Shown here piece by piece: positions 2,888-30,904 of a stretch of DNA of 38,595 nt (the stretch's first letter is position 1; each line of letters starts with the position of its first letter). The DNA is taken from NCBI GenBank assembly GCA_029820995.1, contig JALGUG010000072.1, positions 1 to 38,595 on the forward strand. Reading direction: 5' to 3'. The stretch is from Candidatus Zipacnadia bacterium. GTDB taxonomy: Bacteria > Armatimonadota > Zipacnadia > JALGUG01. Below the pieces are notes generated by a model. That model was not told the origin of the DNA. It saw only the letters and a list, made by a program, of their open reading frames with translations, and ran no database searches. Both the position numbers and the translations under genes were made by a program.

Positions 2888-3286
2888 ATGCGCGTCAAAG
2901 CTGATCGGTACTGCTTCGCATGCGGGCCTGACAACCCGAAGGGCCTGCATCTTCGGTTTCGACCGGAAGGAGACGAGCAAGTCGCCGACTTCCTGGTGAA
3001 TCGCGAATGCCAAGGGTGGGCCGGCATTGCGCACGGCGGGATCCTCGCCACCTTGCTCGACGAGGCCATGACGACGGTCCTCTACGCCCAAGGCATCATG
3101 GCGACCACAGCGGCACTGGAAGTGCGATACCGCCGACCGGTCCCCGTGGGAAGGACTGTGCAAGTCCGGGGCCGAATAGTCCGCCGACGAGGTCGCTTGG
3201 CCGAGACGGCGGCGAGTATTACTCTCGATGACGGGTCGGTAGCTGCGGAGGCGCGAGCCAAGTTCATGGGGGACCGGAAACAGTGA
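2888..3286 (+). CDS. PaaI-like hotdog-fold acyl-CoA thioesterase
   Basis: This 132-residue single hotdog domain is predicted to hydrolyse acyl-CoA thioesters in the cytoplasm. The N-terminal CFACGPDNPKGLHLRF (Cys9, Cys12) is typical of a PaaI-like subgroup. The catalytic-region motif GIAHGGILATLLDEAM holds the HGG (49-51) and the Asp/Glu pair (58-59). The C-terminal strands VRYRRPVPVG and VEARAKF-like segments complete the fold. It is the first gene after a strong promoter, and its stop codon directly abuts the start of the acyl-CoA ligase, so the two are almost surely cotranscribed. The substrate chain type cannot be read from sequence. Confidence 0.9.
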   Translation: MRVKADRYCFACGPDNPKGLHLRFRPEGDEQVADFLVNRECQGWAGIAHGGILATLLDEAMTTVLYAQGIMATTAALEVRYRRPVPVGRTVQVRGRIVRRRGRLAETAASITLDDGSVAAEARAKFMGDRKQ

Positions 3287-4909
3287 ATGGTCGGTCCCCG
3301 GAGAACCAGAGTAAGGTGGGTGTGGCGGGTGGAGCGAGACACCGAACAACGGGTTCCGGAGCCGGCGACACGGCCCCCTGAGGCAGAAACACCGAAGCTG
3401 CTCAGTGAACTCCTCGCCGCAGCGGCCCATAGGTACGGCCGGCTGCCGGCCCTGGCCTGTGGTGACCGGCGCATCAGCTACGCCGAGCTGGCCCTCACGG
3501 CCGACTACCTGGCCGGGGGCCTGGCCTCGCTGGGCGTAGGCCCGGGCCAACGCGTCGGTTTGCTGTTGCCGAATTGTCCCCAGTTCGTACTGGGCTACTT
3601 CGCCGCCATCCGAACGGGCGCCATGGCTCTCCCGATCAGCGCCCTGCTGGGGCCCGAGGAAATCGCCTACATCCTCAATAACGCCGAAGTGAGCACGCTC
3701 ATCACCGTGGACGCGCTCAGCAGCTCTCTTCCGCTGCTGCGGGCCGCTGTGCCGTCGCTGGAGAACGTTATCGTAAGTGGCGCCGCGGTGCCCGAGGGTG
3801 CGATCGGCTTCGAAGAACTGGTGGGCATGAAACAGCAGCCGCCTGCGCCCCCCGATATGCAGCAGGATGACGTGGCGGTGCTGCTGTACACCTCGGGTAC
3901 GACCGGCCGCCCCAAGGGCGCCATGCTCACCCACCGGAACATCATGTGGGATGCGGCGGCGTGCATGAAGGCCATTGACGTTCACACCGAGGAAGTCTTT
4001 CTCACGGTGTTGCCCCTGTTTCATTCCTTCGGTGCCACTGTATGCATGGTGATCCCGATCCTGGCGGGCGCTTGCTCCGTGATGCTGCCCAAGTTCGCGC
4101 CCCTGGACGTGCTTCGCGCCGTCACCAGAGAGAAAGTCACGGTGCTGGCGGGAGTGCCCTCCATGTACGGCGTGCTGCTTTCGGCCAAAACTTCGGAGGA
4201 GTACTCGTGGCGTACCGTGCGGCTGGCGGTGTCCGGTGGCGCCCCGCTGCCCTTGGAGGTGCTTCACGGACTCCAGCAGATGGTCTCGCACGGAACGGTG
4301 CTCGAAGGCTATGGCCCGACCGAAGCGGCCCCGGTCGTGAGCGTGAATCCTCTCTATGGCGTCCAGAAACCGGGCAGTGTCGGGCTGCCTCTACCGGGCA
4401 TTGAGCTCCGGGTCGCCGATGACAACGATCGGAGTCTGCCGGTGGGCGAGGTCGGTGAGCTGCTCGTCCGTGGTCCGAATGTGATGGCTGGGTACTGGCG
4501 GGACCCGGCGGCCACGGCGGAAGCCCTGTGTGGTGGCTGGCTCCACACCGGCGACCTGGCCCGCCTGGATGAAGACGGCTATCTGTACATCGTGGACCGC
4601 AAGAAAGACATGATCATTGTGAGCGGGATGAACGTCTATCCGCGCGAGGTCGAGGACGTGATCTATCGCCTCCCTCAGGTCGCCGAGGCTGCGGTAGTCG
4701 GCGTGCCCAGCCGCTTGCGGGGCGAGGACGTGATCGCGACCGTCGCCCTGCGGGAGGGCGCAGCACTGAGCGCCCACGCGATCATTGAGCACTGTGCGGC
4801 GAATCTGGCCTCCTTCAAGGTGCCCAGACGCGTGGTCTTCTTCCCCGAGTTGCCGAAATCCGGCAGCGGGAAAATCCTGAAGCGGGAGATACGCGAGATT
4901 GTCCAATAG
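3287..4909 (+). CDS. AMP-dependent acyl-CoA synthetase/ligase (FadD-like)
   Basis: This protein of about 540 residues belongs to the ANL adenylating superfamily. It would activate a carboxylic acid, probably a fatty acid, to acyl-AMP and then acyl-CoA. Seen: the P-loop YTSGTTGRPKG at about 201-211, GYGPTEAAPV, the hinge region HTGDLARLDEDGYLYIVDRKKD, and the C-terminal lysine motif PKSGSGKILKREI. The ATG at 3287 directly follows the thioesterase stop. The first 30 or so residues are Arg-rich and look non-homologous, so a later start (for example GTG at 3330) is possible. The pairing with a thioesterase suggests acyl-CoA pool control or lipid remodelling. The exact substrate is unknown. Confidence 0.93.
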   Translation: MVGPRRTRVRWVWRVERDTEQRVPEPATRPPEAETPKLLSELLAAAAHRYGRLPALACGDRRISYAELALTADYLAGGLASLGVGPGQRVGLLLPNCPQFVLGYFAAIRTGAMALPISALLGPEEIAYILNNAEVSTLITVDALSSSLPLLRAAVPSLENVIVSGAAVPEGAIGFEELVGMKQQPPAPPDMQQDDVAVLLYTSGTTGRPKGAMLTHRNIMWDAAACMKAIDVHTEEVFLTVLPLFHSFGATVCMVIPILAGACSVMLPKFAPLDVLRAVTREKVTVLAGVPSMYGVLLSAKTSEEYSWRTVRLAVSGGAPLPLEVLHGLQQMVSHGTVLEGYGPTEAAPVVSVNPLYGVQKPGSVGLPLPGIELRVADDNDRSLPVGEVGELLVRGPNVMAGYWRDPAATAEALCGGWLHTGDLARLDEDGYLYIVDRKKDMIIVSGMNVYPREVEDVIYRLPQVAEAAVVGVPSRLRGEDVIATVALREGAALSAHAIIEHCAANLASFKVPRRVVFFPELPKSGSGKILKREIREIVQ

Positions 4910-6278
4910 CTCTTGTCGTGGATGGCTCGTGTTGTGGCTGTTGGGCGCGAGCCTGGGGTCAATCACGGCTCCGGCTGGCGCTGCACCGATCTTGGTCCCG
5001 GACCATGTGAAGCTGGAGACGCTGGACAACGGGCTGCGTATCGTCCTCAAGCAGGAGCCGGCCCAGCCCGCGGTCGCCCTCGCCTTGTACATCAAAGCGG
5101 GGTCACTCTACGAACCCGAGGGCAAATCCGGCCTGGCCTTCTTGTCTCAGCGAATGGTGTTCGGCGAGCAGGACGCCGACGGCGAGCCCGGCTTTGGCCG
5201 GCAGATCCAGGCACTGGGCGGCGAAGCGATGGTGGGCACGACGCGGGATTTCGTCCAGGTGACTGTGACTGTGGCCCCGGAGTACGTCGGCGATGTCCTC
5301 CAGGCGATGGGGCAGGCCCTGGCCCAACCAGACTTGAGCGCAGAGGCCTTCGAGCGAGAGCAGCGTGCCGTCTTACGCCGGCTACAGGTGGAGCGCCAGC
5401 AGATCACCCCGCGTAACATGCAGGCGCGCCTGAGTCGCCGCCTGTGGGCCGAGGCGTTCCGGAAGCACCCCTACGGCGGCTCGCCGCGTGGCTCGGAGGC
5501 CGACATCAAGAAGCTCAAGCCGGCCGACGTGGCAGGCTTTGTCAAGCAGTTCTACGCCCCCGACAACATCTCGCTCGTGGTGGTCGGAAACACCACGGCT
5601 CAGGACCTCGTCCCGCGCGTACAGGCGGCGCTGGGGGCCCTGGAACCGGCCCGAAGCCGTTGGTCCCGGCCCCCACCCGAGCCCGCGCAAAGCGGCCGAC
5701 GCGTGCGGGTCCAACGCGAGGCGACCCTGAAAGCCACAATGCTCAGCCTCGCCTTCCGCGCCCCGGGCATCGAGAACAAACCGGACGTGTGCGCCATGGA
5801 CCTCATCTATACCCTCCTGGGACAAGGCGATTTCGGGTGGCTAAACCGCGTCCTGCGCGACGAAAAGGGCCTGGCCATCAGCGCGGAGGCGGACTTCTTG
5901 ACCCAGAGAGAGCCGGGGCTGTTCATTCTCACGCTGGCCACGCCTCCCAGCAAGGAGCTGCAGGCGCGCGCTGCCCTGGAGCAGAAGATCGCCAAGCTGC
6001 AACAGGAGCTCGTCCCGGAGGACCGGCTCCGAGAAGCCAAACGTCTCCTGACGGTCAACTACGCCTTTCAGAATGAGACGGGCACTGACCAGACGGGATC
6101 GCTGGGCTTCTACGATGCCATTGATACCTACGAGTTCGCGATTCAGTACATTAATCAGGTGCGGGCGGTGACCCGCGAGGACCTCCGGCGTGTGGCCCAA
6201 CAGTATTTCGTGCCCGAGAGAGCCACTCTGGTGATCATGCGCCCTCGCGGCGCTCGCAGTGGGCAGGAGGCCACCTGA
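4899..6278 (+). CDS. Exported M16-family (insulinase-like) protein lacking the zinc motif, subunit 1
   Basis: This 459-residue protein has an N-terminal signal peptide (about residues 1-29) and the two-domain M16 fold. Motifs include LDNGLRIVL, the AGSLYEPEGKSGLA block, HPYGGSPRG, and FVKQFYAPDNISLVVVGN. The inverted zinc motif HxxEH is replaced: GLAHxxEHMxF of active members reads GLAFLSQRMVF (78-88). The distal ligand region (usually V-L-E-E) reads VLRRLQ. It is therefore predicted to be non-proteolytic. It starts at TTG (4899) inside the end of the ligase gene, an 11-base overlap. GGAG lies about 9 bases upstream and the signal peptide begins right after, which supports this start. It likely partners the next gene in the periplasm. 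Confidence 0.88.
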   Translation: MSNSSCRGWLVLWLLGASLGSITAPAGAAPILVPDHVKLETLDNGLRIVLKQEPAQPAVALALYIKAGSLYEPEGKSGLAFLSQRMVFGEQDADGEPGFGRQIQALGGEAMVGTTRDFVQVTVTVAPEYVGDVLQAMGQALAQPDLSAEAFEREQRAVLRRLQVERQQITPRNMQARLSRRLWAEAFRKHPYGGSPRGSEADIKKLKPADVAGFVKQFYAPDNISLVVVGNTTAQDLVPRVQAALGALEPARSRWSRPPPEPAQSGRRVRVQREATLKATMLSLAFRAPGIENKPDVCAMDLIYTLLGQGDFGWLNRVLRDEKGLAISAEADFLTQREPGLFILTLATPPSKELQARAALEQKIAKLQQELVPEDRLREAKRLLTVNYAFQNETGTDQTGSLGFYDAIDTYEFAIQYINQVRAVTREDLRRVAQQYFVPERATLVIMRPRGARSGQEAT

Positions 6279-6281
6279 GCT

Positions 6282-7646
6282 GTGTTTGCCCCCAGCAAGA
6301 AGCTCGCTGTCGGATTGCTGCTTTTGACTACGGCGGTCCTGTGCCTGGCCGCACCCGAGGGCCAGGTCGTGACCGCCACGCTGGATAACGGATTTACGGT
6401 CCTGGCCGTCCACGACACCAGCACGGATGTGGCCGGCGTGGCTTTGGCCTTCCGCGCTGCGGCCACCGAGGAGCCCCCGGGCAAAACCGGCGTTCGGGCC
6501 GTGCTGCAAGAACTCGTGCAGCAGAAGCTGAATGAGCTGCTCAAGAGCAAGGCCGGCGCGTCACTCGATGCCCTGGCCGACGCCGGCGTGCAGGTCGGCG
6601 CCAATACCGATCGCAGCTACGTGGAGCTAACAGGCCAGGTCGTCACCGACGAGGTTGCGACCACCATCCGGCTATTCGCCCAGGCAGCGCTGAAGCCCAC
6701 GTTCGACGAGGGGAGCGTCGCGGCCGCACGGGAGAACGTTCGGGCGGAAGCCGCTGAGAAAGAGAAGGACCCACTGCGCGGCACATTCAACCTGTTCCGC
6801 GCCGCCTTGGGCCTCGATAACCGGGGGCTGTGGGTTCTGACCACTGAAGCCGCCGTCAAGGCGATCACGGCCGATGACCTGAAGCAATTCCATGCGACGC
6901 ATTACGTCGGCCGGCGCGGGGCTCTTGCTGTCAGCTCGGCCCTGCCGGTCGCGGAGGTCAAAGGGCTGGCCGCAAAGACGCTGCAGGACTTCCCCTCGGG
7001 CGAGGCGCCGACGATCACGCTTGAGCCGCTCAAATTGCTGGAGCGGACGCGGACCAAGGTGCGTGGATTGCGCCCCGAGGGAAGCCGCCCCCTGGCTCGC
7101 GCGGCGATCATGGTGGGCGTGCCGGCGCCCGGCCCCGGACAACCCGACTTCTACGCCACCGAGATCGTGCGCGAGGTCCTGGCTGGAGGCGAAGGCGGCC
7201 GTCTGGCCGAGAGCCGGGAATTCCGCCGAAGCCTTACCGAGCCCTCCGGCGATGTCCCCTGGCGTGAGTTCTGGGAGCCGGTAAACCGCGCCTTCTCGCC
7301 CGATTTCAGCCCTGTGGCAGTGGTGGCAGCCCCGCGGCCTCTGAAGGTTGATGCAGTCAGCGCTGCGTTGCAACGGGAGTTTCGAAGATTGTCTGAGAAG
7401 CCACCCACGAAGGAAGAGATCGCTGCCGCCAAGTGTCGGCTGATTAACGCCTATGCGCTGTCGCGGCAGCGCAAGCGGGCCCAGACGGCGATCCTGGCGC
7501 GCTACCACGTGCTGGGACTCCCAGTTAGCCTCGACCGAGCGTATCCGGCGAAAGTACGTGCGGTTACCGAGGACGAAGTCAAGCGAGTCATCCGCAAGTA
7601 CTTCCAGCACTGCGCCATCGGCGTGCAAATGCCCCTGAGCGGCTAG
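6282..7646 (+). CDS. Exported M16-family protein lacking the zinc motif, subunit 2
   Basis: This 454-residue protein has an N-terminal hydrophobic signal segment (about residues 6-23). The M16 pattern is recognisable: ATLDNGFTVLAVHD, the GKTGVRAVLQE block, and a second half with RAAIMVGVPAPGPGQPDFYATEIV. The HxxEH position reads A-V-L-Q-E (73-77), so the zinc ligands are absent, as in many second subunits of bacterial M16 pairs. Start GTG at 6282 has AGGAGG 11 bases upstream and follows the first M16 gene by three bases. A complementary-subunit role is expected, but the usual catalytic partner is also inactive by motif here. Sequence drift is greater than in subunit 1. Confidence 0.82.
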   Translation: MFAPSKKLAVGLLLLTTAVLCLAAPEGQVVTATLDNGFTVLAVHDTSTDVAGVALAFRAAATEEPPGKTGVRAVLQELVQQKLNELLKSKAGASLDALADAGVQVGANTDRSYVELTGQVVTDEVATTIRLFAQAALKPTFDEGSVAAARENVRAEAAEKEKDPLRGTFNLFRAALGLDNRGLWVLTTEAAVKAITADDLKQFHATHYVGRRGALAVSSALPVAEVKGLAAKTLQDFPSGEAPTITLEPLKLLERTRTKVRGLRPEGSRPLARAAIMVGVPAPGPGQPDFYATEIVREVLAGGEGGRLAESREFRRSLTEPSGDVPWREFWEPVNRAFSPDFSPVAVVAAPRPLKVDAVSAALQREFRRLSEKPPTKEEIAAAKCRLINAYALSRQRKRAQTAILARYHVLGLPVSLDRAYPAKVRAVTEDEVKRVIRKYFQHCAIGVQMPLSG

Positions 7647-7700: not shown

Positions 7701-9521
7701 ATGAGCAAGGAAAAGCAGTTGCCGAAACATGACGCTTCGATGCACCTGCGAGGGCGCGTGCCCCAGTGGACCCGGCGCCTCGCCGCGCTGGTGGACCGCT
7801 CGGAGATGTCGTCGCGCACCTTCCTCATGGTCCTGGCACTAGTCGTTGGTCTGGGTGGCGGTTATGGTGCCGTGTTCTTTCGCTGGTTGATCCGCACGTT
7901 CCACAAGCTGTTCTTCGAGCATGGCGCTACACTGCTTGCGCCCCTCGGCCCGTATTACGTGATCATTGTCCCGGCGGTCGGCATGGTCATTGTAGCGGCC
8001 ATGGTGCGATACCTGGCCCCCGAGACCAAGGGGCACGGAGTCCCCGAGGTCATGGAGGCTGTGGCGTTGCGGGGGGGCATCATTCGGCCCCGAGTCGCCG
8101 TCATCAAGTCGCTGGCTTCGGCCGTCTGTATCGGCTCCGGGGGTTCAGCCGGCCGCGAGGGGCCGATCGTCCAGATCGGCTCCGCCCTGGGCTCAACGCT
8201 CGGCCAAATCCTGCATCTGTCCGACAACCGCGTGCGGACCTTGGTGAGCTGTGGCGCCGCCGCGGGCATCGCCGCCACGTTCAACGCTCCGCTGGCCGGC
8301 GTGTTCTTTGCGCTCGAGATTATCGCCGGAGACTTCACGGCCGAGTGCTTTGGCGGTGTCGTAGTCTCCTCGATCATGGCCTCCGTCGTGGGACGCAGTG
8401 CCTTCGGAGACATGCCCGCCTTCACGGTCTTCCCCTACCAACTGGCGCGCCACGCAGAGCTCATCTTTTTTGTGTTGCTCGGCATTGTCGCCTGTCTGGT
8501 CGCGCAGCTCTTCATGCGTACGCTCTACTACTGCGAGGACCTCTTTGAAGGAATGCGTCTCCCCTGGCCGGCGACCGCAGTGATCGGCGGGCTGGGGATC
8601 GGTGTGACCGGTTTGCTGTTTCATGAGGTGTTCGGGGTCGGGTACGCCGCGATTGATGAGGCCGCCTTTGCCCGCTATAGCATCGGATTCGCCCTCTGCC
8701 TCCTGGCCGCCAAGATCCTCGCCACCTCCGTCACTCTGGGAAGCTGGGGCTCCGGCGGAATCTTTGCTCCCTCCCTCTTCATGGGCGCCATGCTGGGGCT
8801 GGCCTTCGGAAAGCTGATGAACCTGATCGGCAGCCAAACATCTCCCGGAGCATACGCGCTCGTCGGAATGGGGGCCGTGTTCGCCGGTACGGCACATGCC
8901 CCGATCAGCGCGATCCTCATCCTGTTCGAGCTCACGCGCGACTACCGCCTGATCCTACCGCTCATGTTCGCCTGCGTGATCTCGACCATCCTCTCCCGTC
9001 TGCTGGAGCGGGACTCGATCTACACCTGGAAGCTGACACGCCGCGGCGTGCACGTCAGCTTTGGTCGCGACATCGGGCTGCTCAACATGATCAAGGTCGC
9101 GGATGCGATGACCACCGATCTTACGACCGTCGCCACAACGGCTAGCGTCCGGGAGGTTGCGCAGTTGCTCGAGACCACGAAGCACCACGGCTTCCCGGTT
9201 GTTGACGAACAGGGCCTATTGCACGGAATTGTGACGCTCCAGGACATCCGCCGGGCGCTCCATGACGGCCAGGAGAATGTTCCGGTCACGGAGGTCGCTA
9301 CCCATGCCGTGCTGGTCTGCTTCCCCGAGGAAAACCTCAACGACGCCTTGCGCAAGCTGGGGCTCAGGGACGTCGGGCGGATTCCCGTGGTGGACCCCGA
9401 CGATCACCGCAAGATCCTGGGCCTGATCACCAGAAAGAATGTCATCACCGCCTACAATCAGGCCCTGATGCGCCAACACGTGGGGCTGGAGCAGACCTTG
9501 GAGACGGAGACCTACGACTAA
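7701..9521 (+). CDS. ClC-family chloride channel/transporter with C-terminal CBS pair
   Basis: This 606-residue integral membrane protein should move chloride or a related anion, as a channel or H+/anion antiporter. Seen: GHGVPEV (111-117) at the GSGIP selectivity position, with His112 where ClC-ec1 has Ser107; GREGP (151-155) with the gating Glu153; FNAPLAG near 194-200; GGIFAP (352-357). After FNAPLAG the segment FFALEII has Glu206 then Ile207, so the inner proton glutamate (E203 of ClC-ec1) is Ile. CBS1 covers about 466-520 and CBS2 about 529-585, likely nucleotide-sensing. It is followed one base later by the DUF362 gene. Specificity and coupling cannot be settled by eye. Confidence 0.93.
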   Translation: MSKEKQLPKHDASMHLRGRVPQWTRRLAALVDRSEMSSRTFLMVLALVVGLGGGYGAVFFRWLIRTFHKLFFEHGATLLAPLGPYYVIIVPAVGMVIVAAMVRYLAPETKGHGVPEVMEAVALRGGIIRPRVAVIKSLASAVCIGSGGSAGREGPIVQIGSALGSTLGQILHLSDNRVRTLVSCGAAAGIAATFNAPLAGVFFALEIIAGDFTAECFGGVVVSSIMASVVGRSAFGDMPAFTVFPYQLARHAELIFFVLLGIVACLVAQLFMRTLYYCEDLFEGMRLPWPATAVIGGLGIGVTGLLFHEVFGVGYAAIDEAAFARYSIGFALCLLAAKILATSVTLGSWGSGGIFAPSLFMGAMLGLAFGKLMNLIGSQTSPGAYALVGMGAVFAGTAHAPISAILILFELTRDYRLILPLMFACVISTILSRLLERDSIYTWKLTRRGVHVSFGRDIGLLNMIKVADAMTTDLTTVATTASVREVAQLLETTKHHGFPVVDEQGLLHGIVTLQDIRRALHDGQENVPVTEVATHAVLVCFPEENLNDALRKLGLRDVGRIPVVDPDDHRKILGLITRKNVITAYNQALMRQHVGLEQTLETETYD

Positions 9522-13006: not shown

Positions 13007-16000
13007 TCACCGCCTCTCGGCGGCCACCGCAATGCCGCAGAGCACTGGAGCACGGGTTCGCGCTGACGCCGCAGGTTTAAGGCTGACCGTCAAGCTTCCT
13101 TTCACGTTGACACCTTTGAACTGCTTGACGATCATCCGGTTCGGCCCGCCCGCCTGCTTGACGATGTCGAAGTCCTTGAGGACCTCTCGCTCCTGCAGCG
13201 CCACGCTGAAGACCCGCTCGCCGGGCTTGGTGTTATCGGGCTCCATGAAATACAAAGCCACAGTGTAGAGACGCTCTTGCTCCGCCTTCTCATCCAGCGT
13301 GATCGTGACTGAGCGCAAGCCCTTGGCGCCGGAGGCAGCGACCCATCTCAGGCCCTCGCCACCGATGCGCGAGGAATGCCGGCGGAACCACTCAGGCTCC
13401 TCGGGTGCGACGCTCACCGATATCGCAGGCGATGGCCCCCCGACGATCGGATACTCCAGCCACAGCATCCCGTCGGGCCCGTAGCGGTCGCCCGGTGCCC
13501 CGAGGTTGATGCCAACGCGCTGCACGGGCGCCCGGTCCTGGGGAAAGATGCTGAAGGTCCATGTTTCGACCTCGGGCATGTACACGAAGGCCAGCGACGT
13601 TTGGTTCTGGTAGCTGCAAGTGCAGGTCCGGGTGTAGTCCGGCGCATTGAGGACGCCGTTGGCGACGATCAAGTTGGACGTGCAGCCGGACTTGAAGCCC
13701 CCCAGGTTGCCGGTCCCGCCGTCAGTTGCCAGGTCGAAGTAGCCCGCCGCGGCAGATCGGAACGTGATCAGATACTCGCTGGCCACGATCGTATTGCAGC
13801 CATAGTTTCGACCGAATTGCCACGGAGCCTCCCTGCCCGTGATCGGGTTCCGGCGCATTATCTGTTCGCCCGTGAGCAGGTTGAAGGCCTGGGCTAACTC
13901 CCGGAGGGAGATCGTCTGGGTGATGATGGTGTCACCGTGCAGCAAACAGGGCCCGTAGTACTTGTGCGGCTTGTCCCACAGCACCTTGCCGTCCCTGCCC
14001 CGGTACGCAATCATCCGGTCGCCCGGCTCGTTGGGCAGCATATCGCGCGAAGGCCGGCCGGCCTGCAGCAGAACATCGTACCGTTCGGAATACCCGAGCC
14101 ACGTGCCGAACACGTCCTTGGTCGTCTCCCACAGGACCTTCCCCGTGCGTACGTCCAGACACACGAGCCGTGGCTGGCCCTCCGGCGTCTGGCCCCGGCG
14201 TTCCATCTTCTGCACCACGGCGTCCGGCAGACGGTCAATGCCGAACAGCTTGTCGTTGCCCAGGGCAATGGCGTTGTGCCGGAAACAGAACACCGAGTCG
14301 AAGGTCCACAGCACTTTGCCGCTGTGACGATTCATGGCGACTAGCTGTTTGCTGGACGTCGCATCCCAGTTGTCTTTGGCGCCGATCGGCTCCTCGCCCT
14401 CGAAGATCAAGGGTGAAGAGCCGGCCACCAAGAGGTCCTTCCAGATGCCCAGATAGCCCCAGATCGGTGCCTCTGACGCGCCGGGCCCGGCCGGGAGCTT
14501 GAACTCGGACACCTGCTTCCCCGTAGCCGGGTCCAGGAGCAGGCATCGCTGTCCGTGAGCGACATAGATTGCCTCCGAGGACGAAACGTAGTTGCTGCCG
14601 ACGGAATTCGCTCCCGGCTGATGGCTGGTGCTGTTATACGGCTTGCCGATGCCCGGAAGCCGCACCTTCCACAGCACGCGTCCGGTATATACGTCCATGG
14701 CGCGCAGCGTATCGGGCCCCTCAATGAACAGCCGACCATCCACCACCTGCTCCGACGGACCATGGCCATGCCGCGGCAGGATCTCAGTGTTCGATGAGCC
14801 GCCAAACCAGAGTACACCCAACGGCGCTTTGACCAGCTTGTCCCGGGACACGCAGGTGTTCCCGGCATCCGCATACTGGTGTGTCCAGTTCGCGGCCCCC
14901 GGCAAGGCTCCCACACGCCTCAGTGTGACGAACTCTCCCTTCACCTTGATCTCGGCCTTCGGCAGCTTGGCCGCCTGGACCGATTGGACGAAGCTTCGCC
15001 TCTTGCTCGCCGGAATCGCCAGACAAGCCACGCCGCCGTAAGGACGCAGCGGGTAGAATAGCTTCTTCGCGAAGGCAGTGCCCTTCGCCAGTCCCGCCGC
15101 TGCCGGATCCTCCGACACAATGAGGCTGGCCACGTACGGGGGGAATCGGAAGGTCAACGGGTCGCCGGCGTGGGCCGATACCCGCACACCGTACAGGCCG
15201 GCGGCCTTCAGCCTCGTGCGCAGCGACGCGATCTTGCCTTCGTCAGGGTCCACGGCGACAAGATGCAACTTGGACTGGCGGGCGAGTTCTTCGATCAGCC
15301 TTCCGTTCCCCACGCCCCAGACCAGGCAGTAGCCCTCAGTTACCCCGGTGAGCCTCAGCAGATCCCCGACTCTCCTGGTCCATTCATCCCGAGTGGGAAC
15401 AGCCCCGGTGCGTTCCTCGGCATAGGTCCTTGGTTGGGTCTTCTGCGATCCGAAGCAGTAGATGCGGCCCTCCAGCGTAACGACCAACAGCCGGTCGTTG
15501 GCCGCCACCATCGAGGCCGGTGTGCCCTCAATCTCCGCTTGCCACGACAGCTTGGGCTTGCCGCCCGGCTGCGGCAAGTCAATTGCCATCACAGCGCCCC
15601 TCTTGCCCGCATACAGGCGCAAGCCTGCCTTCAGGAATACTCGTTCAGCTTCAACGGGCAAGCTCCACAACTGGGGTGCCCACCACCTCTCGATCTTGTT
15701 CCCCTTCCTGTCCTTGGTGATTGTGACTTCCAGCTTCACCGGGTCATAGGCTGCAACAGCGCCCTTGTCCACGCCGTACAGTCTGTCCTCGGTCACGATG
15801 GAGCAGCGAGCATCGGGAGTCGCCGTGCTGCGATACGGGTTCAGGTTGGCTGGAGAGCCGACGCCCGCCCGGAGCCGACCGTCGGCCAGGTCATAGACGA
15901 TGCCGCAGTTGACGAAGCGCTCACCGGCCGCTGAGACCCAGAACCCCCCCAGATACTTGTTCTCTGCGAGGTGAAAGTACAGGAGCTTGCCGGTCTTGCG

Positions 16001-16765
16001 GTCGAAGCAAGCCGGGGCTGACCGGCCGCCGGCCACCAGGAGCCTGTCGCCCGCCGCCGCCAAGTAGCCTTGTGGCGCGATGCCGCCGAAGGCCGGGCTG
16101 TTGTGGGGCTGCTGGATGTACATGGCGCCCGTGCCGTCGTTCTGCCACAGAACTTGACCTGTTTCCGCGTCCAGGCAGTAGATGAACACGCCCATGAACG
16201 GCCAGATGCCCGCAGCGAAGTACACCTGCCCGTCGGCGACGACCGGCGCGCCCCGGGCCGGCCAGGCGGAGATCAGCCGTTTGTTGCCCAGGAGTTTGCG
16301 CTCACTCGGCGCCCCGAGGAATTTCCACACGAGTCTGCCGTCCGCCGCTCTCAGACAGTACAGGTGACCGTCGTCCGAGGCGAAGTAGACCCGGTTCCTC
16401 CAGGCTACAGGGGCAAAACGTACCGGGCCGTCGGCAAAAAAGGTCCACTTGGCGGCGCCGCTGGCCGCATCCAGGGCCAACACGCTGTCGGTCCCCGGCG
16501 AGTTCACGAACACCATACCGCCCTTCACCACCGGCTCATAGCACACGTCGAACCGCATCCGCGGCTCATCCGGCCAAGCCGGCTCCAGCGGCGGGTACTG
16601 CCGGACCCACTGAAGATGCAGCTCAGCCGCCAATTCCGTCGTCACGGCACTGCGCCGGGCGTCACAGCGATACATCGGCCAGTCCGTCGCGCCGGCACGT
16701 GCCGCGAGCAGGGCGACAGATAGCAGAAGGAGGCGAATTGATCCACAGAACCTGGTGCGACGCAT
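13007..16765 (-). CDS. Giant exported PQQ-like propeller protein with inserted methyltransferase-like domain and malectin-like C-terminus
   Basis: This is about 1252 residues. Positions here count from an upstream GTG at 16774. A signal peptide ends near residue 29. A first BamB/PQQ-type propeller (about 30-443) begins DWPMYRCDARRS. A Rossmann-like region (about 460-620) has VWGVGNGRLIEELA and, one strand later, VAVDPDEGK, as in class I SAM-dependent methyltransferases. A second propeller (about 627-1077) begins NWTHQYADAGNT and repeats motifs such as DVYTGRVLWK and DVRTGKVLWE. The tail (about 1087-1250) resembles malectin-like sugar-binding modules. The ATG at 16765 is preferred, with GAGGTG about 6 bases upstream. 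It diverges from the GH116 gene. The function is unknown, and whether the methyltransferase part can work outside the cytoplasm is an open question. Confidence 0.85.
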   Translation of the reverse strand: MRRTRFCGSIRLLLLSVALLAARAGATDWPMYRCDARRSAVTTELAAELHLQWVRQYPPLEPAWPDEPRMRFDVCYEPVVKGGMVFVNSPGTDSVLALDAASGAAKWTFFADGPVRFAPVAWRNRVYFASDDGHLYCLRAADGRLVWKFLGAPSERKLLGNKRLISAWPARGAPVVADGQVYFAAGIWPFMGVFIYCLDAETGQVLWQNDGTGAMYIQQPHNSPAFGGIAPQGYLAAAGDRLLVAGGRSAPACFDRKTGKLLYFHLAENKYLGGFWVSAAGERFVNCGIVYDLADGRLRAGVGSPANLNPYRSTATPDARCSIVTEDRLYGVDKGAVAAYDPVKLEVTITKDRKGNKIERWWAPQLWSLPVEAERVFLKAGLRLYAGKRGAVMAIDLPQPGGKPKLSWQAEIEGTPASMVAANDRLLVVTLEGRIYCFGSQKTQPRTYAEERTGAVPTRDEWTRRVGDLLRLTGVTEGYCLVWGVGNGRLIEELARQSKLHLVAVDPDEGKIASLRTRLKAAGLYGVRVSAHAGDPLTFRFPPYVASLIVSEDPAAAGLAKGTAFAKKLFYPLRPYGGVACLAIPASKRRSFVQSVQAAKLPKAEIKVKGEFVTLRRVGALPGAANWTHQYADAGNTCVSRDKLVKAPLGVLWFGGSSNTEILPRHGHGPSEQVVDGRLFIEGPDTLRAMDVYTGRVLWKVRLPGIGKPYNSTSHQPGANSVGSNYVSSSEAIYVAHGQRCLLLDPATGKQVSEFKLPAGPGASEAPIWGYLGIWKDLLVAGSSPLIFEGEEPIGAKDNWDATSSKQLVAMNRHSGKVLWTFDSVFCFRHNAIALGNDKLFGIDRLPDAVVQKMERRGQTPEGQPRLVCLDVRTGKVLWETTKDVFGTWLGYSERYDVLLQAGRPSRDMLPNEPGDRMIAYRGRDGKVLWDKPHKYYGPCLLHGDTIITQTISLRELAQAFNLLTGEQIMRRNPITGREAPWQFGRNYGCNTIVASEYLITFRSAAAGYFDLATDGGTGNLGGFKSGCTSNLIVANGVLNAPDYTRTCTCSYQNQTSLAFVYMPEVETWTFSIFPQDRAPVQRVGINLGAPGDRYGPDGMLWLEYPIVGGPSPAISVSVAPEEPEWFRRHSSRIGGEGLRWVAASGAKGLRSVTITLDEKAEQERLYTVALYFMEPDNTKPGERVFSVALQEREVLKDFDIVKQAGGPNRMIVKQFKGVNVKGSLTVSLKPAASARTRAPVLCGIAVAAERR

Positions 16766-16800
16766 TCGTTTCACCTCAAGCGGCGAGTTGCCGGGCTATT

Positions 16801-24101: not shown

Positions 24102-25601
<1,500 letters not shown>

Positions 25602-28538: not shown

Positions 28539-30797
28539 TCACCGTGAGCGATACAGGTGCACAGCATAGGGATGGAACTCATCCCTGAGCTCGCCCGCAC
28601 GGCTGTGCACCACGCGGTTCTCGAACAGCACCTCCCAATCCGCCGCGCCGCTCACCGGGACGCTGATACTCGCCTCCTGAAACATGTCGGTCGGATTCAC
28701 TCCCACGATGTACAGACGGCCCTCGTGGTGCCAGACCCTGGCCTCCACGCCCTCCCCGCGCACCTTAGCTGGACCGAGGCTCAGCCCATCAGTCAGCGCC
28801 GGCTCCAGCGCGTGCAGCCGCTTGTTGGTGCCGCCCATGGACTGCCACAGGCGCGGCGCATCGCGTGTGATCAGATATGCCGGCCGATCGCGGTGCGAAA
28901 TTGTCTGAAAGCTGCGGAACACCAGGCCGTTGGCCCCATGCACCAGCGCCAGAAAGGTCAGGCACCGATGCTCCTCCGGGGTAGGGTTGCGCCCCGCTCC
29001 GTCAACCGGCAGATTCCGGTCCAGGCTAAAGTGCGTCCCGATGCTTTGAATGCTGGCCCAAACCGGCTTGGCTCCGCGGACCGCCGCGTGCGCCAGGTCC
29101 AGATCATGGGCCAGAGTCTGCAGCGGCGCGACCGGCACGATATCGCTCTCGACGAGCAAGATGTCGCAATCGCCCGCGTACTCGCGGTAGTATGTGGGCG
29201 ACCCCAACGCCGCCACCACGGGCCGCACCGGATCGCGCCGTCGCAGCAACTCGTAAATCGGCGCAAACAGGCCCGGGGACATCAGTGCCTGACCGGGACG
29301 GCGGAAGATCTCATAGCCTAAGAGGCCCGAGCGCGCTCCGAACTTCTCGTGCACGCGGCCCCAGAACTCCTCGACGTTGGAATCCGACTGCACCACGTAC
29401 CCCAGACCGAGACGCTCCGCTTCCTCGGCATATGCCGTGTAGCAGGCCCGATAGGGCGCCAGAACGCTATTGAAACCTGTTTGGGCCGCGGTTTCCAGGT
29501 CCTCCTGGATCAACACACCCGCCAGCATCAGCGGAAACAGCTTCTTGCCGTCGCGCCGGAGCAAGAGGTCGGCTCCGTAGCCGAATTCGTGCGGCGCGGC
29601 CGGTGCCTGCCGAAACACCAGCGACTGCGTCGCCTCGGTCTTGCCGTTGACCTCCGCCTGCAGCCGCACCTCGTATTCGCCTGTCAGGAGCTTACCCGGA
29701 TCAAGCGTTACCGTGAACTCCTGCCGGCCCACTCGTGTCAGCCGCTGCACCTTCCCCTCGCCCAGTGCCGGACCGGCGCCATGCACGCTGGCCACCACAT
29801 CCATCTTGGACGCCAGCGCCTCCGCCGCGTTTACCCGTCCGCGCACCACAACTTTGGTCTCGCCCAGCAAGGGCAGGCGCGTGCCCCGGAAAGCCGGCGA
29901 GACGATTTCCGCATCAAACAGCCCGGGCACCGTCACAACTCGGCGATCATACACGGCCTCCCCGGTCTCGTCCGTCAAAACGTACTCTAACTGCTGCGTT
30001 TCCTCCACCGGAAGATCGTACTCCAGGCTCAGTTCGCCGTCAGCCGCAGCTTTCAGCGACAGGCTCTTCTTCCAAGTCCGCGGTTTGCGCTTCGCCGAAC
30101 GCAGAACGAACCGGCCGCGAACCGTGACGGGCTTCTCGGTGCCGTTCTTGACCGCGACAACGATCCGCCGCTTTCCGGAGAAGCTCTGCACCTCGCCCAG
30201 TGCCTTCAGGCTGCTTGTGACTTCCGCCGGAAACCGGCGCACGCTGACGGCGTCAACCAGGAAGGTGCCGTCGGCCGCGACCTTGAGCAACAGCACCGCC
30301 TGCCGTACACCGGGCGTGAGGTCCACGACCCAGGAGAAGTGCCGCCAGTCCTTCGCGCCCTGTACCAACTTCGCCACATCTTGCAGTCGGGGAGTATCCC
30401 AACCGCGTTCGCGGAAGTCTTGCCGGAAAGTGACCAGTTCAACCTGTGCCGCCGGGTGCCCGGCGGTCTTGTACCAACAGCCGATGATCAGCCGGTCCGG
30501 CGGGTCCGGCTGCAGCTCCAGGGGCCAGCACGAGACCCCGAAGTTCACCGGTCCGGTCTTGGACGTCACAGCCAGCGCCCGCTTCCCGCGGTACGCCTTC
30601 TTCGTGAGGCCGACCTCTGTCGGGACCTCGGGGCCCCAGCGGCGCACCTGCCAGCTCTCCGGCAGGCCGTCAGCCGTCATCGCCTCAAAGGACGGGTTCG
30701 CCACCAGATTCTGCGCAGCCGCCGCCCCAGCGACCAGTGCCCACAGCGACAGAACCGCCCCAATCAGCCGCGTTCGGTCACGCAATCGTTGCTTCAC
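28539..30797 (-). CDS. Exported glycoside-hydrolase-like protein, probable pseudoenzyme
   Basis: This 752-residue protein starts at GTG 30797 with GAGG 5 bases upstream and a signal peptide (about 1-29). An N-terminal CBM4/9-like domain (NLVANPSFEAMTADGLPESWQV) is followed by beta-sandwich modules. A C-terminal TIM-barrel-like domain (about 415-700) resembles putative hydrolases of Planctomycetes and Verrucomicrobia, with KPVWASIQSIG and PTPEEHRCLTFLALVHGANGL. Those homologues usually have W-Y-x-x-D-E-P at the strand-4 acid/base site. Here it reads YEIFRRPG (495-502), so the acid/base Glu seems lost. A longer frame to 30884 lacks a signal at its start. It may bind carbohydrate rather than cut it. 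The family match is from memory. Confidence 0.75.
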   Translation of the reverse strand: MKQRLRDRTRLIGAVLSLWALVAGAAAAQNLVANPSFEAMTADGLPESWQVRRWGPEVPTEVGLTKKAYRGKRALAVTSKTGPVNFGVSCWPLELQPDPPDRLIIGCWYKTAGHPAAQVELVTFRQDFRERGWDTPRLQDVAKLVQGAKDWRHFSWVVDLTPGVRQAVLLLKVAADGTFLVDAVSVRRFPAEVTSSLKALGEVQSFSGKRRIVVAVKNGTEKPVTVRGRFVLRSAKRKPRTWKKSLSLKAAADGELSLEYDLPVEETQQLEYVLTDETGEAVYDRRVVTVPGLFDAEIVSPAFRGTRLPLLGETKVVVRGRVNAAEALASKMDVVASVHGAGPALGEGKVQRLTRVGRQEFTVTLDPGKLLTGEYEVRLQAEVNGKTEATQSLVFRQAPAAPHEFGYGADLLLRRDGKKLFPLMLAGVLIQEDLETAAQTGFNSVLAPYRACYTAYAEEAERLGLGYVVQSDSNVEEFWGRVHEKFGARSGLLGYEIFRRPGQALMSPGLFAPIYELLRRRDPVRPVVAALGSPTYYREYAGDCDILLVESDIVPVAPLQTLAHDLDLAHAAVRGAKPVWASIQSIGTHFSLDRNLPVDGAGRNPTPEEHRCLTFLALVHGANGLVFRSFQTISHRDRPAYLITRDAPRLWQSMGGTNKRLHALEPALTDGLSLGPAKVRGEGVEARVWHHEGRLYIVGVNPTDMFQEASISVPVSGAADWEVLFENRVVHSRAGELRDEFHPYAVHLYRSR

Positions 30798-30852
30798 GCT
30801 CGCCTCGCCCACGACGTTCCTCCCACTGACCCGGTGCCTCACTGCCACACTA

Positions 30853-30904
30853 GAAGTTGCTTCATAACCCCCGTAGGATAACATAGAGCGCCTTCAGGCG
30901 CGAT
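30853..30904. repeat. REP-like dispersed element, copy C
   Basis: A leader starting GAAGTTGCTTCATAACC is followed, after a 9-base insertion relative to copy B, by a perfect hairpin GCGCC-TTCA-GGCGC (30888-30901) and GAT. It lies in the 165-base gap between ridA and the hydrolase-like gene, which otherwise holds nothing recognisable. Confidence 0.55.

Follow-up and report, generated by a model that had tools for sequence, protein, structure and literature searches.

Two adjacent M16 genes

The window analysed here, a stretch of 38,595 nucleotides from a Candidatus Zipacnadia bacterium, carries two adjacent genes for M16 proteins, referred to as S1 and S2 (Table 1). Zipacnadia is a poorly known group of sediment bacteria. 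Both reading frames are open over their full length: S1 encodes 459 aa from a TTG start codon that overlaps the stop codon of the acyl-CoA synthetase gene upstream, and S2 encodes 454 aa from a GTG start preceded by AGGAGG. A search with the M16 Pfam HMMs, suggested as a check on the original prediction, placed both domains above their cut-offs in each protein (Peptidase_M16, PF00675: 70.5 bits in S1 and 28.2 bits in S2; Peptidase_M16_C, PF05193: 117.9 and 60.1 bits). The hydrophobic N-termini of S1 and S2 resemble signal peptides by eye, and both proteins are apparently exported.

Table 1. Features of the locus (positions within the window)
Feature	Position	Strand	Basis
4HBT thioesterase, upstream; of the loci compared, only that of f3 had a match	2888..3286	+	Pfam
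Acyl-CoA synthetase (AMP-binding), conserved upstream neighbour	3287..4909	+	Pfam, synteny, sequence
S1, M16 protein in catalytic-subunit position, zinc site lost, putatively exported	4899..6278	+	Pfam, orthologues, AF2 model
Former HxxEH of S1, now F81-L-S-Q84-R85	5139..5153	+	Alignment with orthologues
Glu104 position of S1, class-invariant; Gln in the window	5208..5210	+	Every active orthologue read in the class has Glu
Former distal zinc ligand Glu of S1, now R161	5379..5381	+	Alignment
S2, M16 protein of inactive-subunit type, putatively exported	6282..7646	+	Pfam, AF2 model, partner of S1 in orthologous loci
AVLQE of S2 at the HxxEH position	6498..6512	+	Class consensus there ALLQx or similar
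S2 loop, location of the catalytic R/Y pair in other M16 proteins; pair absent here	7185..7247	+	Missing from every S2 read in class Zipacnadia
ClC channel with CBS domains; its place beside the pair is not conserved	7701..9521	+	Pfam

AF2 models were obtained with a mean pLDDT of 90.9 for S1 and 87.7 for S2, and the S1 helices bearing both former sites (residues 79-88 and 148-167) were predicted to be intact. In Foldseek, both models matched M16B structures with a probability of 1.00; the best PDB matches were 3ami, 5euf and 4nnz for S1, and 3ami, TTHA1265, 4nnz and 3amj were matched by S2. By sequence, the closest solved relatives of S1 were subunits of bacterial M16B heterodimers, namely PA0372 (4nnz) and the Sphingomonas A1 subunits, and that of S2 was the inactive Sphingomonas subunit (3amj_B). 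The gene pair has the make-up of a bacterial M16B heterodimer, with adjacent genes of about 450 codons that encode an active-type and an inactive-type subunit by descent. In M16B enzymes, a two-subunit clamshell encloses the substrate, and pairs with one dead subunit are ordinary.

The original prediction had described a pair in which both members lack the zinc motif, with Arg-Arg in the distal ligand segment of S1, and the alignment with orthologues agreed on each point. An M16 peptidase carries HxxEH and a distal Glu in one of its two halves; the residues found were FLSQR and R161 in S1, where the HxxEH positions are F81, Q84 and R85, and AVLQE in S2. R161 lies within VLRRL, which aligns with xxREL in active orthologues. 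Position 112 of S1 is also changed, to V; many active M16 proteins have N-A on this strand. A shifted motif had been named as evidence against the prediction, and a scan of both whole proteins revealed no HxxEH or HExxH anywhere in S1 or S2. The only histidines of S1 are His36 and His190, neither of them in a metal-binding pattern. There is a 5-residue insertion after R161, and it could be argued that E165 replaces the distal Glu; the three HxxEH residues are gone regardless. As read from these residues, neither S1 nor S2 can hold zinc.

The second catalytic element of an M16 peptidase, an R/Y pair that the partner half carries in its C-terminal domain, is likewise missing from the window S2. 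The R/Y pair functions in substrate binding and transition-state stabilisation (PMC12731061). It was present in the S2 of most outgroup Armatimonadota and was missing from every Zipacnadia S2 read, even beside an S1 with a zinc site. HxxEH was also absent from S2 in every orthologous pair read, which makes S2 the inactive subunit throughout the class.

The original prediction had placed the pair beside acyl-CoA and ClC genes. The first of these neighbours is conserved, with an acyl-CoA synthetase gene preceding the pair in many class genomes, but no ClC gene was seen beside the pair in the comparison flanks annotated, and ClC was dropped as a functional partner for that reason. The usual next gene after the pair in the class encodes an RmlC-like cupin (PF00908, about 151 aa) of the dTDP-4-dehydrorhamnose 3,5-epimerase type, for example at L057:6627-7079. 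This cupin was present in 42 of 46 class genomes, including the zinc-less lineages f2 and g18 described below, and it is better conserved than the M16 pair (58-88% identity among class members, two weak matches excepted). It was not found in the window genome, and in family f3 it sits on another contig than the pair. The acyl-CoA synthetase and cupin neighbours give a weak hint of an envelope setting. Elsewhere in the window we noted a very large ORF (13007-16774, minus strand) that combines PQQ/BamB-like repeats with a malectin domain and a weak match to a methyltransferase; a family I prolyl-tRNA synthetase (TIGR00408) with a ProRS-C_1 domain (24159-25601, plus strand); a double-domain PPK2 whose best match was polyphosphate:AMP phosphotransferase (TIGR03708; 26813-28381, plus strand); and a 781-codon ORF (28539-30884, minus strand) with no Pfam or NCBIfam match.

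Orthologues and loss of the zinc site in the class

The named relatives of S1 came from Armatimonadota MAGs, many of them Candidatus Zipacnadia or candidate division WS1. S1 was matched in 45 of the 46 class genomes compared (E <= 1e-30); most carry an orthologue at 33-41% identity, and in a few the match is to a more distant M16 protein only. Where the contig allows, the S2 orthologue generally lies directly after S1. Forty class sequences formed a supported S1 clade (support 100/98), within which HxxEH and the distal Glu were kept in 32 and lost in eight. The eight zinc-less sequences belong to the window, to one genome of family f3 (G002), to all four genomes of family f2 and to two genomes of genus g18, which lies inside family f8; the other readable f8 genera keep the motif. 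The residues at the site differ among them: FLSQR with R161 in the window, RFVNE with Q in f3, DLVRH or DLVRY with R in f2, and RFVAH or RYVAH with L or I in g18. Both S1 and S2 were present at all eight zinc-less loci.

A broken HxxEH was also found in three homologues outside the class clade (L088, L089 and L052). L088 and L089, of the Abditibacterium lineage, read HLLET and HLVEI, keeping the first His and the Glu and losing the last His; L052 reads ALLQR. On the S1 tree, the 11 zinc-less rows imply a minimum of five state changes. The window and f3 sequences grouped weakly (support 91/69), and their loci are alike in having a thioesterase upstream and no cupin directly downstream, so the two may share one loss. 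The topology test rejected neither a single loss in the window and f3 nor a single clade of f2 and g18. One loss common to all eight class sequences was disfavoured but not firmly rejected on S1 alone (p-AU 0.065); genome taxonomy speaks against it, as g18 lies within a family whose other readable genera keep the motif. Two to four losses of the zinc site within the class are likely.

The window genome contains two further M16 genes with HxxEH. One is a single-length ORF (a 444-aa frame on contig C194), and the other is an 890-aa ORF with two M16 halves (G000:C248:25560-27257), the first of which carries HFLEH. Most class genomes have long ORFs of this type. The cell therefore still has an M16 enzyme that is apparently active, and general M16 activity is not missing. 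A recent duplication that freed one copy was considered and was unsupported, with no second S1-like gene at orthologue level in the genome.

Selection on the zinc-less pair and competing explanations

Rates of substitution were compared by the Nei-Gojobori method. The zinc-less pair of f2 (G014 versus G041) gave dN/dS values of 0.14 for S1 and 0.10 for S2, and is under purifying selection. The values were 0.17 and 0.21 in zinc-less g18, where dS is near saturation, and 0.21-0.31 (S1) and 0.23-0.49 (S2) in active pairs. A set of 44 S1 positions was defined as invariant (at least 95% conserved in active S1), and the window S1 keeps 38 of them. The six positions lost were W56, H81, E84, H85, E104 and E161, which include all four zinc and catalytic positions (hypergeometric P = 1.1e-4). 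Across all eight zinc-less S1 sequences 27 of the 44 positions are kept, and H81, E84 and E161 are lost in every one. No break interrupts the 913 codons of the two window ORFs, although the terminal branch of S1 amounts to about one substitution per site. From these intact frames and conserved positions, and by extension from f2 and g18, we infer that the window pair is probably under selection as well.

These data bear on whether S1 is simply decaying, with catalysis lost, the gene on its way out and the pair functionless. Such decay would fit the retention of HxxEH by S1 orthologues at 36-41% identity and the lack of the usual downstream cupin in the window genome. It would also fit the rate of S1 relative to the neighbouring acyl-CoA synthetase, which was 1.3-2.65 in zinc-less lineages versus 0.6-1.4 elsewhere (one-sided p = 0.001, with rows that are not independent); this faster evolution may reflect relaxed constraint as much as new function. 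We read it as a release of catalytic constraint, with selection for a scaffold or binder function still acting on the protein. A functionless pair is nevertheless unlikely, given the 913 open codons, the concentration of losses at the zinc site among otherwise conserved positions, and the low dN/dS of the zinc-less f2 pair, which is present in all four genomes of its family. The recurrence of the loss, its fixation in f2, the purifying selection and the focus on the zinc site together argue against simple decay. The original prediction had held that close homologues with the motif would point to decay or sequence error; HxxEH is indeed retained in orthologues that are about 40% identical, but the conclusion of decay or error fails.

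The explanation by error, with miscalled catalytic codons or a chimeric contig, draws on the state of the genome, a MAG of 5.5 Mb in 481 contigs with 5% estimated contamination. We consider it highly improbable: four separate codons are changed with no frameshift, the same loss, through other residues, is seen in seven more genomes from independent records, and the order acyl-CoA synthetase, S1, S2 is that of the class. The pair might also still be enzymatic, through a zinc-independent or relocated activity or through S1 and S2 each joining a further M16 subunit as the provider of the active site; the HxxEH-bearing ORFs on C194 and C248 would be the candidates. However, the 890-aa protein already comprises two M16 halves, and the adjacency and co-conservation of S1 and S2 point to each other as partners. 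With no metal-binding pattern around either S1 histidine and with the catalytic R/Y loop of S2 gone too, continued enzymatic activity seems quite improbable.

The reading we prefer, with a probability of about 0.68, is that the pair is a zinc-free, non-proteolytic two-part clamshell, derived from an M16 peptidase and kept by selection, that binds peptides or acts as a scaffold. The ancestor of S1 and S2 would have been an exported M16B-type heterodimeric zinc peptidase, with S1 catalytic and S2 non-catalytic, that the ancestor of the class already possessed. In the window lineage, and separately in other lineages of the class, most or all of the zinc and catalytic residues of S1 would then have been lost, with both subunits remaining under purifying selection. 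The product would be a zinc-free clamshell in the cell envelope, its chamber binding peptides or an unfolded segment without cutting; alternatively, the dimer would serve as a structural scaffold. The S1-S2 heterodimer, its envelope location and its peptide binding are presumed in this scheme. Since the pair retains neither zinc ligands nor catalytic Glu nor R/Y, holding a peptide or protein segment, or a structural role comparable to that of the bc1 core proteins, is most likely what is left. A non-proteolytic role for which the pair is conserved, as originally proposed, is the most likely one, given the recurrence, the f2 dN/dS and the losses focused on the zinc site. The original interpretation is supported in part: a chaperone, a peptide binder and a scaffold are all candidates for that role.

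A broader version of this scheme is possible but doubtful. The main selected function of the pair across Zipacnadia, whether peptide holding or envelope scaffolding, may already have been non-proteolytic, and loss of the R/Y pair from S2, no later than the base of the class, may have made HxxEH of S1 dispensable, leading to its repeated loss. If the class-wide version were true, the group would parallel the bc1 core proteins in bacteria and would comprise both cutting-type and non-cutting orthologues.

Comparison with known M16 pairs

A search of the accessible literature found no bacterial M16 pair with both subunits dead, although one may exist. S1 and S2 form a bacterial M16 pair, apparently exported and inactive in both subunits, whose orthologues in the same class include active-type pairs; such a pair appears to be new. 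Cutting-type and dead orthologous pairs at one locus in one class would allow the change from enzyme to scaffold to be compared directly, and the comparison bears on how the M16 clamshell functions without catalysis.

Among two-gene bacterial M16 pairs, YfmF/YfmH (EF-P modification) and AlbE/AlbF (subtilosin) offer a likeness in organisation, the latter compared with S1/S2 by literature description only. S1 was weakly similar to the YfmF and YfmH models, but the NCBIfam scores were far under the cut-off (64/285 bits for YfmF and 23/250 bits for YfmH) and the gene context differs; membership of YfmF/YfmH or PqqF was ruled out by the scores. The best sequence and fold matches of S1/S2 were SPH2681/SPH2682, TTHA1264/TTHA1265 and PA0371/PA0372, which also consist of an active-type and an inactive-type subunit. 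In those pairs one subunit has HxxEH and the Glu, whereas neither S1 nor S2 does and S2 lacks R/Y.

Pairs with both members dead are known from the mitochondrial bc1 core proteins. Core I and II likewise form a two-subunit M16B dimer that is usually non-proteolytic and related to an active M16B pair, and the fold match with S1/S2 is strong. HxxEH is missing from yeast core I and modified in bovine core I, and the cavity between the cores is occupied by a small subunit (PMC12731061). The window ORFs scanned included no recognisable bc1 gene, and the alignment revealed no long glycine-rich loop in S2, a difference from the cores. The core proteins are mitochondrial and built into bc1, whereas S1 and S2 are bacterial and apparently exported.
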